DNA of 64,000 bases from Acidobacteriota bacterium. GTDB taxonomy: Bacteria > Acidobacteriota > Terriglobia > Terriglobales > Acidobacteriaceae. The stretch is taken from contig JAJYUB010000007.1 of the NCBI GenBank assembly GCA_021792795.1, forward strand, positions 1-64,000, written 5' to 3'. Both the position numbers and the translations under genes were made by a program. The notes under the pieces are model-generated. The model was given only the letters and a program-made list of their open reading frames with translations. It was not told where the DNA came from and ran no database searches. The stretch's first letter is position 1. Each line of letters begins with the position of its first letter. This document shows, piece by piece, positions 2,128 to 61,920 of the stretch.

Positions 2128-2164
2128 CCCACTCAAGCCAAAAGAAGGCTTGAATGGGGCACCC
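2128..2164 (+). repeat. Intergenic hairpin repeat, CCCA...TGGGGCACCC family, copy 1
   Basis: The left arm CCCA-C-TCAAGCC (2128-2139) pairs with GGCTTGA-A-TGGG (2147-2158) around a 7-base A-rich loop, leaving a single C/A mismatch at the fifth position. GCACCC follows at 2159-2164. A nearly identical copy with the same mismatch lies at 61841-61876. It sits in the rplA-rplJ spacer, so it would be transcribed as part of the ribosomal operon. Confidence 0.8.
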
Positions 2165-14032: not shown

Positions 14033-14082
14033 AAAACGCCGTCGGCATTTTCAATGTTATTGTGATGCGAGCTTTGTTCTAT

Positions 14083-14113
14083 CCCACCCTAGCTTCGCTA
14101 GGATGGGGCACCC
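14083..14113 (+). repeat. Intergenic hairpin repeat, CCCA...TGGGGCACCC family, copy 3
   Basis: CCCA-C-CCTAGC (14083-14093) pairs with GCTAGG-A-TGGG (14097-14107) over the three-base loop TTC. GCACCC follows at 14108-14113. The C/A mismatch at the fifth position is the same as in copies 1 and 8. It lies between the convergent thioredoxin-like and beta-glucosidase genes, where it could help end transcription. Confidence 0.8.
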
Positions 14114-14141
14114 ATGACGTTTCGCTATCTGTGAAAGCCCC

Positions 14142-19205: not shown

Positions 19206-19236
19206 CCCATGTCTCAGAATCGAGACATGGGGCATC
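19206..19236 (+). repeat. Intergenic hairpin repeat, CCCA...TGGGGCATCC family, copy 4
   Basis: CCCATGTCTC (19206-19215) pairs perfectly with GAGACATGGG (19222-19231) over the loop AGAATC, and GCATCC follows. This is a one-base variant of the GCACCC trailer seen in the other copies. It lies 8 bases after the pyk stop. Confidence 0.8.
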
Positions 19237-19343
19237 CAGATCGCAAACGGGACCGCAGGCAGGCCCGTCGTCAACCTTGTTCAGCCTCCTCCGCGCTTCT
19301 TGGGCCAACCCAAATTCTGTAAACATCCTACAATTGGTTCCTT

Positions 19344-21398
19344 ATGGGCTACATCCGTGTTCTTTCCGATCAGGTGGCGAACCAGATCGCCGCCGGCGAG
19401 GTGGTGGAACGGCCGGCGTCGGTGGTGAAAGAACTGCTGGAAAATTCGCTCGACGCCGGGGCCCAGCGCATCCGCATCGATGTGGAAGCGGGTGGCCGCA
19501 AACTGATCCGCATTGCGGACGATGGCTGCGGCATGGTGCGCGACGACGCCCTGCTGGCCTTCGAGCGCCATGCAACTTCGAAGATCCATTCCAGCGACGA
19601 TTTGCTGGAACTGGCCACGCTGGGATTTCGCGGCGAGGCGCTTCCCTCGATCGCGTCGGTGGCGCGGGTACACCTCACCACTCGCTCCGCCGAAGAAGCG
19701 GTGGGAACAGAAATGGAAATTGCCGGCGGGAAAATCCTGCGGGTCGCAGACTGCGGCATTCCGGCGGGTACAACGCTGGAGGTGCGCGACCTTTTCTTCA
19801 ACACGCCCGCGCGCAAGAAATTCCTGAAAGCGGAGCAGACGGAGTTGTCGCACATCGCGGCCCTGGCCACGCATTATGCGTTGGCCAATCCGACCAAGCA
19901 TTTTGAGCTGCATAGCGCCAGCCACGCGCTGTTGCAAGCCCCGCCGGTGCAGCATGTATCGGAACGAATCTTTCAGGTCTTCGGGCGGGATGTGCTGGAC
20001 CAGTTATTGCCGGTGGCGGCGGAAACGAACTTCGAGCGGGCTGGCATTCCAGAACCGCCGCCGTGGAAGCGCGGGGAGGATTGGCAGCCGCAAACGCCCG
20101 GCCTGCTGCGTCTGCATGGGTTCGTTTCGCGGCCGCAGTTGCAGAAGCTGAACCGAAATTCCATGTACGTGTTCGTGAATCGGCGGTTGATTCGCGACCG
20201 AACCATGCTGCATGCGCTGACTGAGGCGTACCGCAACGTGATTCCGCCCACGTCGTTTCCTGTCGTTCTGTTGTTTCTGGAAATGCCGCCGCAGGAGGTG
20301 GATGTGAACGTGCATCCCGCCAAGACGGAGGTGCGCTTTCGTCAGCAGGGATTCGTGCATGATTTCGTTCGCGACGCCGTCCGCAATTCGATTATTAAGA
20401 CACGTCCGGCGGCCAGTTTTCTCACCGCGTTGAGCGATCATGCGGCGATGACGCCGGCGCTGGTTCCGGATTTGTCGCCGCTGCCGGGCGCGCCGGAACC
20501 GGCGGATGGTTCTACTGGCGGGCCTGGCAGCGAGGGGACCCACATCTCAGAAGCGAGACCCTTCGACAAGCTCAGGGCAGGCTCTGGGGCACCCGGCCAA
20601 ACACCAGGCCCGATCGACTCTGGAACAGTTTCTCCTGGGGCCGTAGCGTTCCAGGATTCCGATCCACCACCAGCGGTCGAAGATGCCGAGCGGTTTGAAT
20701 TGCAGCCGCCGCCGATTTCTCCTGCTGCGCAAGGGCTGCCGTTTTTGCCGGGCAGTCCAGCCATTCCGGCGCAGCAAGAAGGTGAGGAGGAGGACATCGC
20801 TCCGCCCACGCTGAACGGCCTGGCCAGCCTGCGACCACTGGGGCAGTTGGAAGAATCCTTCATCCTTGCCGTGAATGAAGAAGGGCTGTGGATCATCGAC
20901 CAGCATGTGGCGCATGAGCGGGTGCTGTTTGAGAAGATCGTTCGCGATCGGGATGTTGAACAGGTGCAGCGCCAGCGGTTGTTGATGCCGGTACTGATCG
21001 ACCTGAAACCGGACCAGATGCCCCTGTTCGCCGCGATTGCGGCGGAACTGGAGCGCAATGGCTTTGAGGCGGAGCCGTTTGGGCCGCGCACCCTGGCCGT
21101 GAAAGCCACGCCGGTTGGGCTGGTCGGCCGCGAGCTGGAACGTACGCTGGTCGAGGTGCTGGAACAGACGGAGCGGGAGCAGCAGGCGCAGAACCTAGAC
21201 ACCCTGCGGCTGCGCATCGCGGCGTCCATCGCCTGCCACGCGGCCATCAAAATCCACACGCCGCTGGAGATGGGAAAAATGGAGTGGTTGCTGGCGGAAC
21301 TGGCGAAAACCGAGCACCCGACCAGTTGCCCGCATGGGCGTCCCATCGTCCTACGGTATTCTTTAAAAGAGATACAGCGCGCATTTCAGCGCATCTAG
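19344..21398 (+). CDS. mutL: DNA mismatch repair protein MutL
   Basis: The 684-residue protein has the full N-terminal GHKL ATPase: 'QIAAGEVVERPASVVKELLE' at 14-33, 'DDGCGM', 'RHATSKI' and 'LGFRGEALPSIASV'. The transducer domain follows to about residue 330 ('VNVHPAKTEVRF'). A Pro/Gly-rich linker of about 150 residues separates it from the C-terminal dimerisation domain (residues about 500-684, 'IIDQHVAHERVLFEK' and 'CPHGRPIVLRYS'). The last motif resembles the C(P/A)HGRP element of endonuclease-competent MutLs, while the 'DQHAA.ER' metal motif reads DQHVAHER. Part of the linker is encoded by intergenic-repeat DNA (20533-20595). A TACAAT box lies 9 bases before the ATG, without a Shine-Dalgarno. 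Confidence 0.96.
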   Translation: MGYIRVLSDQVANQIAAGEVVERPASVVKELLENSLDAGAQRIRIDVEAGGRKLIRIADDGCGMVRDDALLAFERHATSKIHSSDDLLELATLGFRGEALPSIASVARVHLTTRSAEEAVGTEMEIAGGKILRVADCGIPAGTTLEVRDLFFNTPARKKFLKAEQTELSHIAALATHYALANPTKHFELHSASHALLQAPPVQHVSERIFQVFGRDVLDQLLPVAAETNFERAGIPEPPPWKRGEDWQPQTPGLLRLHGFVSRPQLQKLNRNSMYVFVNRRLIRDRTMLHALTEAYRNVIPPTSFPVVLLFLEMPPQEVDVNVHPAKTEVRFRQQGFVHDFVRDAVRNSIIKTRPAASFLTALSDHAAMTPALVPDLSPLPGAPEPADGSTGGPGSEGTHISEARPFDKLRAGSGAPGQTPGPIDSGTVSPGAVAFQDSDPPPAVEDAERFELQPPPISPAAQGLPFLPGSPAIPAQQEGEEEDIAPPTLNGLASLRPLGQLEESFILAVNEEGLWIIDQHVAHERVLFEKIVRDRDVEQVQRQRLLMPVLIDLKPDQMPLFAAIAAELERNGFEAEPFGPRTLAVKATPVGLVGRELERTLVEVLEQTEREQQAQNLDTLRLRIAASIACHAAIKIHTPLEMGKMEWLLAELAKTEHPTSCPHGRPIVLRYSLKEIQRAFQRI
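20533..20595 (+). repeat. Chimaeric repeat element translated in frame within mutL
   Basis: This stretch combines the left part of the CCCA/GCACCC hairpin family (CACATCTCAGAAGCGAGAC) with CCCTTCGACAAGCTCAGGGC. The latter is close to the reverse complement of the core of the TCATTCTGA/GAAGAATCC repeats, for example 35165-35208. It then ends in CTGGGGCACCC. It keeps the reading frame and encodes a peptide with SEARPFDKLRAGSGAPG in the flexible linker of MutL. Counted as copy 5 of the hairpin family. Confidence 0.75.
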
Positions 21399-21446: not shown

Positions 21447-21478
21447 CCCAGGTCTCAATATCGAGACCTGGGGCACCC
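21447..21478 (+). repeat. Intergenic hairpin repeat, CCCA...TGGGGCACCC family, copy 6
   Basis: CCCAGGTCTC (21447-21456) pairs perfectly with GAGACCTGGG (21463-21472) over AATATC, followed by GCACCC. The 10-bp stem differs from copy 4 (19206) by one compensated base pair (A-T to G-C), so the structure is kept while the sequence changes. It lies between mutL and the next gene. Confidence 0.85.
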
Positions 21479-52128: not shown

Positions 52129-52655
52129 GCCCACATTGTAAGGCGCGGCGGCATGGGATGGAAATTGCAGTGGCCCGAGGGCCCTGCGCCAGCCCCCGCC
52201 AATACCGACACCTTCGTCGCCACGGACGCGACCAACGCGCGGGACCTGGTGGCGGCGGCTGGATCCGGAGAAGGACCGATGCTGCTGCCGACCAACGCGC
52301 TGGAAGGAGCGCGGGGCCCGCAATCGCCATGGTGGACCGCGCAAATCTACCAGACACGCTGGAAAATCGAGGAGACTTTTCGCTTCCGCAAGCAGGGCCA
52401 CCGCCTGGAGGACATCCGGGCGATGAAGTACCAGCGATTGAAGGACCCGCTCGGCTGGCAGGGCGAAAAATTCTGAGGAAACTCCTGCAGGTCTTTGCCC
52501 TTGACAACGCCTTCACTCTTATCGAGGGGCACCCATGACATGACATGATCGATGGAAATGCTTTCGACCCAGGCAGGATTCCGCGCAAAAGATTCCTGAG
52601 CAAGAACGGGCCGGTGGGGTTGCAGGATCGCGTGCCTTCTTTTAGCGTCAAGACT
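52129..52655. other. Intergenic region with a transposase remnant
   Basis: Apart from the remnant listed at 52270-52476, this 527-base stretch contains a GAGGGGCACCCATGAC segment at about 52525-52540. It shares the GGGGCACCC trailer of the hairpin repeat family and extends like copy 3, but it has no clear left arm. No Shine-Dalgarno of quality precedes the next gene. Confidence 0.5.
52270..52476 (+). pseudogene. Remnant of an IS4-like transposase
   Basis: In the + frame the codons from about 52276 encode 'GPMLLPTNALEGARG...PWWTAQIYQTRWKIEETFRF', continuing with 'KQGHRLEDIRAMKYQRLK' before the frame drifts into DPLGWQGEKF and stops at 52474-52476. The 'Y.TRWKIEE.FR..KQ...LEDIR...Y.RL' string is how I recall the Y-(2)R-(3)E-(6)K signature of IS4-type DDE transposases. 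Neither the N-terminal catalytic part nor the C-terminus is present, so this is a decayed piece. No terminal repeats are seen. Confidence 0.65.
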
Positions 52656-61840: not shown

Positions 61841-61876
61841 CCCACTCAAGCCAAAGGAAGGCTTGAATGGGGCACC
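61841..61876 (+). repeat. Intergenic hairpin repeat, CCCA...TGGGGCACC family, copy 8
   Basis: CCCA-C-TCAAGCC (61841-61851) pairs with GGCTTGA-A-TGGG (61860-61871) over AAAGGAA, followed by GCACCG. It is almost identical to copy 1 at 2128, including the C/A mismatch, although the two lie 60 kb apart. It stands between infC and the oxidoreductase gene. Confidence 0.85.
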
Positions 61877-61920
61877 GCGCGATCCGGCGGGGGCGAATTT
61901 CAGAAGGTCCAGCAGCAGGC

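Follow-up and report, generated by a model that had tools for sequence, protein, structure and literature searches.

Hairpins with a constant foot and a GCACC tail in one family of Acidobacteriota are probably REP-type elements associated with RAYT transposases and oriented in step with strand skew

The window analyzed here, 64,000 nucleotides from the start of contig JAJYUB010000007.1 of an Acidobacteriota draft genome (GCA_021792795.1, herein G000), carries the ribosomal genes rplA, rplJ, and rplL, a minus-strand GH3 gene, a pyruvate kinase gene, mutL (19344-21398, with a MutL_C domain), and, farther along, minus-strand genes for a MocA-type oxidoreductase and translation factor IF-3. An initial annotation, made from the letters alone, had described six hairpins in a CCCA/TGGG frame and a chimaeric one within mutL; all were found, and all lie on the plus strand:

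2128-2164, plus strand: candidate REP-type hairpin of the ACTCAAGCC stem class with a C·A mismatch at pair 5, between rplA and rplJ; the same class surrounds a RAYT gene on contig C98 of this genome
2786-2816, plus strand: candidate REP-type hairpin of the GGTTAG stem class, between rplJ and rplL; the same class flanks a RAYT gene on contig C73
14083-14113, plus strand: candidate REP-type hairpin of the CCCTAGCT stem class within a longer repeat, just past the 3' end of the GH3 gene
14044-14140 (approximate, ends placed by eye), plus strand: longer repeat, MITE-like and bounded by inverted ends, in which the 14083 hairpin lies, defined by setting the flanks of 12 CCCTAGCT copies side by side
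19206-19237, plus strand: candidate REP-type hairpin of the xxTCTC class (TG) with trailer GCATCC, after the pyruvate kinase gene
20539-20594, plus strand: chimaeric xxTCTC-class hairpin in mutL with a CCTTCGACAAGCTCAGGGCAGG-type repeat within (covariance-model E 0.13)
21447-21478, plus strand: candidate REP-type hairpin of the xxTCTC class (GG), between mutL and the next gene
61841-61877, plus strand: candidate REP-type hairpin of the ACTCAAGCC class with trailer GCACCG, between the oxidoreductase and IF-3 genes; missed by the xxTCTC covariance model

The annotation had given the trailer as GCACCC, once GCATCC; the exception at 19206 is as described, but 61841 carries GCACCG. The C/A mismatch that it had assigned to three copies is the C·A at pair 5 common to 2128, 14083, and 61841, and the compensated change between 19206 and 21447 amounts to one pair, T-A to G-C at pair 5. 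A copy beside minus-strand genes was also correctly noted: 61841 lies between two of them, and 14083 follows the 3' end of another. Exact matches to the frame number four in the window, against 0.02 expected, and none of 100 shuffles reached four. A covariance model of the xxTCTC class detects the two xxTCTC copies strongly and 2786 at E 0.002, with weak scores for 14083, 2128, and 20539 (E 0.05 to 0.13); a weak match at 52498-52534 (E 0.47) was not counted. No Rfam family matched in the window at gathering thresholds.

We searched genomes with the pattern CCCA-N10-40-TGGGGCACCC, using the reversed pattern as a control. The 4.04-Mb draft gives 102 matches (59 forward and 43 reverse) and the control none; 100 of these places were listed, two of which are one nested copy. 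A chance origin is thus rejected both in the window and in the genome. The genome-wide covariance-model search proposed in the initial annotation likewise returned more copies than chance would give, with at least 59 places at E ≤ 0.01 when 150 of 2130 first-look candidates were scored. Across 297 genomes of the phylum, this genome and all 30 others of its family contain matches (2 to 297 copies), whereas the remaining 266 have 0 to 7, akin to the reversed-pattern control (0 to 9); outside the family, most of the matches listed have no stem joining both arms and a few have one, as judged by eye. By the titles of named relatives, the family comprises Acidobacteriaceae and their kin. Only 9 of 106 copies in the draft lie inside genes predicted by a codon-usage caller, so that the hairpin is a short palindrome in many, mostly extragenic copies, as REPs are. 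Pairs of inverted REPs acting as a unit (REPINs) were considered and rejected, since most copies are singlets: 89 of the 106, with 12 having a direct and 5 an inverted neighbor, and 82 of 118 in stretches of three other genomes (32 direct, 4 inverted).

The anatomy of the element was defined from these 106 copies with their flanks, two further hairpins of the 108 gathered having been dropped because they do not start with CCCA. The constant parts are CCCA...TGGG and GCACC, both required by the search, followed by C in 92%; the two bases 5' of CCCA are AT in 52 copies and CT in 17. In the pooled copies there is little conservation beyond these two bases and the GCACCC tail. The stems fall into the classes xxTCTC (35), ACTCAAGCC (22), GGTTAG (13), CCCTAGCT (12), CCCTTCGC (6), GCCGC-type (5), and others (13). 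Three classes keep a C·A mismatch just above the foot (22/22, 12/12, and 4/6 copies). Pairs 5-22 and 6-21 vary in concert within the xxTCTC class. An alignment restricted to 28 variants of equal length (25 from the xxTCTC class, 3 close to it; longer ones were omitted) gives a covariation score of 0.216 against 0.072 for shuffled alignments, with 0 of 500 as high and slid versions far below; two of the five measures used are not decisive, namely pairs changed on both sides (3, reached by 77/500 shuffles) and further pair types (8, reached by 53/500). The stems therefore covary, where the annotation had named a lack of covariation as evidence against a family. Among 132 hairpins that flank RAYT genes, the foot is CCCA/TGGG in 90, CCCG/CGGG in 39, and CCCC/GGGG in 3; the fourth pair thus covaries as well, and the deeper constant is CCC/GGG plus GCACC.

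A REP-associated transposase, which the annotation had suggested looking for, was found, flanked by matching hairpin copies. The genome has three Y1-type genes above the 80-bit cut-off of the NCBIfam REP_Tyr_transpos model (111.7, 105, and 99.5 bits, the third gene's score being the 105); scored as proteins, those on C98 and C73 reach 111.2 and 98.7 bits. At least one RAYT over the cut-off is present in 50 of 60 family genomes. Among solved structures, 4ER8 (TnpArep) is the closest in sequence to the C73 protein (E 4.5e-11). Among 79 RAYTs with a flanking hairpin, the HUH motif PEH(V/I/F)H is found in 77 and the tyrosine motif Y.(H/R).NP in 76. Judged by sequence, these predicted proteins have the features that define RAYTs, a match to the REP_Tyr_transpos model and the HUH and Y..NP motifs. 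Their named relatives (best 80 of 412) are mostly Acidobacteriaceae and Terriglobia metagenome-assembled genomes, together with Acidicapsa, Terracidiphilus, Granulicella, Edaphobacter, and Occallatibacter.

Eight ACTCAAGCC hairpins lie within 3.4 kb of the C98 RAYT, and GGTTAG hairpins stand on either side of the C73 RAYT. In both cases the copy upstream lies in inverted orientation, the one downstream extends into the 3' end of the gene, and the tags point outward. Two of the eight C98 hairpins, at L032 1663-1693 and 2906-2936, lie inside the RAYT gene itself and the neighboring ubiD, and both frames stay open. The third RAYT of the genome, on C16 (L031), has no hairpin of the frame nearby; a palindrome, GGCCCGACTTCAGTCGGGCC, adjoins it. 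No RAYT in the assembly has the stem of the xxTCTC class, and one is found in a relative (G305).

These arrangements were surveyed in the family and the named relatives, where 110 distinct RAYTs were collected and the 101 with 200 bp on both sides were used. Within 200 bp, 50 RAYTs have hairpins on both sides, 23 on one side, and 28 on neither, so that 73/101 have at least one. The two-sided pairs are inverted with tags outward in 39/50, and the paired stems are alike (≤2 of 16 differences) in 40/50; 1000 re-pairings gave a mean of 3.3 and a maximum of 9. At 77 loci, hairpins occur at 3.64 per kb up to 250 bp from the RAYT and at 0.126 per kb at distances over 600 bp. RAYT genes thus have copies of one and the same repeat on their flanks. 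Distances between RAYTs and between their stems correlate (Mantel r 0.436, against at most 0.104 in 2000 permutations), and the nearest RAYT has the same stem in 54/79, compared with 13.6% of random pairs; this correlation could stem from physical linkage alone. The tag at the hairpin foot is GTGC. The canonical GT[AG]G tag 5' of the RAYT-side hairpin was rejected because it occurs at the level of its control: of the 73 RAYTs with a frame hairpin, 24 have a GT[AG]G-tagged hairpin beside them and 23 one tagged GA[AG]G (control), while GTGC is found at 72 and its control CTGC at 5, the count of 72 arising partly by selection, as the frame hairpins were found by requiring GCACC. The corresponding numbers for the 28 RAYTs without one are 14, 14, 8, and 6.

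To assess orientation, strand skew was computed with the elements masked, and the direction of each element was compared with the sign of the local GC skew. The GCACC-tailed strand lies on the G-rich strand in 93/106 copies of this genome (77/83 where the skew exceeds 0.04), in 63/65 copies in G339 (20 stretches of 20 kb), in 30/33 in G327, and in 16/20 in G139, where two copies oppose a skew of -0.003 and 2/3 copies at L415 oppose the skew. The G339 and G327 stretches were mostly picked for listed copies, not for orientation, and those of G139 were evenly spaced. Skew in the window is positive in 15/16 blocks of 4 kb, and this replication-type polarity is why all of its copies face one way. 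In 18/20 G339 stretches the third-position skew of plus and minus genes points to the same strand; the skew is therefore not an effect of gene direction. Gene directions were taken from a codon-usage caller trained on the window, which replaced a long-ORF estimate that is useless in G+C-rich DNA. On these calls, 31 of the 106 copies in this genome have two neighbors pointing their way and 27 have two pointing the other way, and 22 of the 27 opposed copies still follow the skew; the counts are 6 and 8 in G139, 13 and 7 in G327, and 26 and 8 in G339. There is a lean with gene direction in G339, but orientation is largely independent of gene direction and follows skew much more closely. That REP-type singlets should keep a single direction relative to the skew, and do so across four genomes, was unexpected.

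A word-level comparison, with stretches of skew under 0.03 left out, gives 109 hairpin-borne GGGGCACC words with the skew and 6 against, compared with 137 to 96 for composition-matched words; instances of GGGGCACC outside hairpins share the bias (16 to 5). As the element is C-rich on its GCACC-tailed strand (G minus C below 0 in 101/106), composition would favor the opposite orientation. On the single 4.13-Mb contig of G339 the sign of the GC skew changes many times among the 20 sampled stretches, as if many inversions had followed the formation of the skew, or as an effect of assembly. A search for replichores in G339 as long blocks of one orientation was unsuccessful: a runs test, applied to 44 collapsed copies, gave no significant result (22 runs vs 23.0 expected; 83 of 94 places were used, nested ones and those lacking a clear stem being set aside by eye). 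The G-rich strand is usually the leading strand, which is also the lagging-strand template, and the genes from rplA to rpoBC lie on the G-rich strand, consistent with this; the label "leading" is used here by that convention. Read with its tag leading, the element lies on the opposite strand to the GCACC-tailed one on the G-rich side. IS200/IS605 elements use the lagging-strand template, as described in part of PMC6006769, and in E. coli the RAYT acts on one strand alone, the one on which the tag precedes the hairpin, according to sections of PMC8266576. Because that enzyme processes the tag-in-front strand and here it is the other strand that follows the skew, the polarity is an observation, and the mechanism behind it one that we infer.

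Comparison of orthologous spacers indicates how sites change. Of nine genomes of the genus, two (G000 and G299) have the ACTCAAGCC stem between rplA and rplJ, four an xxTCTC stem (its first arm altered in two of them), one a different stem, and two no hairpin; the site coincides in G000/G299 and G301, and the copy lies elsewhere in the spacer in G297 and G298. Since the flanks in G000/G299, a CTGAGAAGCGAGAC-like sequence and a CCCAGG sequence, match one half each of the G301 xxTCTC element, the ACTCAAGCC hairpin lies within, or has replaced, an older hairpin. The rplJ-rplL spacer of the same nine genomes has the GGTTAG class in three, the CCCTAGCT class in four (three decayed), and none in two, and related species thus show different stems in the same frame in two spacers of the ribosomal operon. 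At 21447 the class is kept with small changes in three relatives, and the site is empty or rebuilt in a fourth. In four relatives the mutL site has an uninterrupted xxTCTC hairpin, whose tail and foot are altered in one of them. The xxTCTC hairpins at mutL (20539-20594) and on C73 (L033 3008-3057) enclose a second repeat, CCTTCGACAAGCTCAGGGCAGGC; G299 and G304 have a like insert in mutL, and in G301, G297, and G302 the hairpin is uninterrupted.

The CCCTAGCT class sits in a repeat of ~97 bp, with inverted ends TGTAATG.../...CATTACA and flanking AAGC-TTTTCAC by eye, that is also seen at L254 1001 and L239 2865. For the L254 copy, two relatives have the unoccupied site and GCTAA bounds the insert on either side (by eye); it is best described as a putative MITE carrying a REP. 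The spacer comparisons support reuse of sites, and fit in-place rewriting and repeated insertion alike. It is possible, if unlikely, that the RAYT system exchanges the stem of a hairpin already at a site, copying another into the constant CCCA/TGGG-GCACC frame by single-strand exchange at the fork, so that sites would persist as their stems change, with orientation locked to the fork.

Our preferred reading, to which we give a probability of about 0.82, is that the hairpins are REP-type elements of one Acidobacteriota family, spread by several RAYT (TnpA-REP) single-strand DNA transposases, each with stem-specific recognition. The RAYT gene would typically stand between two inverted copies of its own hairpin. 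Its product would recognize the constant foot and tag, on the tag-in-front strand 5'-GGTGC followed by CCC[A/G]...[T/C]GGG, together with the stem particular to that RAYT, and would mobilize copies with the tag acting as a guide sequence; movement through DNA left single-stranded at the replication fork would account for the polarity. Copy number, tag, stem covariation, flanking of RAYTs by matched stems, and skew-tied orientation are each observed directly. The matching copies beside RAYTs, the excess of copies, and the covariation favor the element mobilized in trans that was one of the two options of the initial annotation, movement itself being what the data suggest. Against this reading stand the 28 surveyed RAYTs without a frame hairpin, the C16 RAYT among this genome's three, and the xxTCTC class, the largest in the genome yet with no cognate-stem RAYT in the assembly. 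The orthologous sites compared also include no clean insertion of a single, bare hairpin with its empty site; the few gaps seen lie in spacers that have diverged.

The other option, a structured RNA or transcription terminator acting in mRNA, with selection on the RNA keeping the stems paired, would explain the compensatory changes. It also agrees with the lean with gene direction in G339 and G327 and with the lower number of copies in spacers between divergent than between convergent genes (4 to 25, 3 to 7, and 1 to 4 in three other genomes; 10 to 18 in this one), as expected if hairpins follow genes or avoid promoters. Yet in this genome and in G139 the neighbors show no such lean, and most opposed copies of this genome follow the skew; inner-stem G·T pairs are rare (9 vs 442 Watson-Crick), there is no T run after the hairpin (T at most 0.42 at any of 18 positions), and the inverted pairs flanking RAYTs are unaccounted for. 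Given that orientation tracks skew over gene direction and that the window has no Rfam hit, we see no support for the RNA option and regard it as very improbable. Somewhat less improbable, though still doubtful, is that the hairpins are signposts of chromosome polarity, whose orientation is selected because a cell protein (an FtsK-type translocase or a recombination or segregation factor) reads the motif, the link to RAYTs being secondary. Orientation does track local skew with few exceptions, even through the skew flips of G339, and the bare word leans likewise; but copy numbers of 2 to 297 within one family, stems that differ between species, and concentration beside RAYTs are the behavior of a mobile element, and known polar motifs such as KOPS and Chi are short words without hairpins. 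Least probable of all, in our view, are MITEs of an ordinary DD(E/D) transposon with a palindromic core and no relation to RAYTs. The 12 CCCTAGCT copies in their longer repeat, with its inverted ends and one empty site, point that way, but capture of that class by a MITE fits both readings, the pooled copies are little conserved beyond the frame, the flanks of GGTTAG copies show no longer inverted ends, and the hairpins flank Y1 transposases.

The REP-type reading places the family beside several described systems. Like the GTAG-tagged REPs and RAYTs (REPtrons) of E. coli, Pseudomonas, and Stenotrophomonas, it consists of many short palindromes with a constant unpaired tag at the foot, with cognate RAYT genes between matching copies. 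Coevolution of RAYT and stem and several RAYT/REP classes per genome are shared as well, as far as the REPtron passages of PMC2817692 go, and the lower-stem mismatch conserved in three classes recalls the bulge of the E. coli REP in the portion of PMC8266576 that describes it. It differs from GTAG REPs in its tag (GTGC instead of GT[AG]G), its constant CCC[A/G] foot, its singlets in place of inverted pairs, and, as far as the literature searched goes, its skew-tied orientation. Under the guide rule described in PMC8266576, where a GTAC variant of one REP is cleaved at GA and GT, a GTGC tag would direct cuts to GA or GC. The system has the defining features of a RAYT and of RAYT-flanking REPs without the GT[AG]G tag, and is not a REPIN.

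Closer in taxonomy are the TIRYTs, or TIRtrons, of the same phylum, tyrosine transposases flanked by inverted repeats, for which the relevant passages of PMC3733652 list genes of T. saanensis, K. versatilis, A. capsulatum, and G. mallensis and one repeat family of K. versatilis. The RAYTs described here probably belong to the same transposase group as these TIRYTs of 2013. In those passages the flanks are termed terminal inverted repeats unrelated to REPs, some with GGGGWSAS, which GGGGCACC does not fit, and, unlike here, the text there describes neither a family of hairpins whose stems can be exchanged nor any strand polarity. Class 3 TnpA-Y1 proteins, also found in Acidobacteria, are associated with structures that have a CnGA foot, ~600 of them in Solibacter usitatus; their tyrosine motif is Y----Q, whereas the Y.(H/R).NP of 76/79 proteins here resembles class 2, going by the classification given in PMC6006769. 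IS200/IS605 elements (IS608, ISDra2) share the Y1/HUH enzyme, but the copies here are short hairpins without a gene, and the C98 and C73 RAYTs score 22.7 and 24.4 bits against the IS200/IS605 model (cut-off 55). In the literature searched, chiefly outside subscription journals, we found no report of a skew-type polarity for REPs nor, among the top-listed papers, of a GCACC hairpin family in Acidobacteria. RAYTs cut REPs in vitro, as described in part of PMC8266576; the route in the cell is inferred. How REPs move is unsettled, and skew-aligned singlets in four genomes provide comparative evidence for fork-coupled single-strand movement. Many stem classes with one tag, in turn, separate what the enzyme must read (tag and foot) from the part that can change (the stem).
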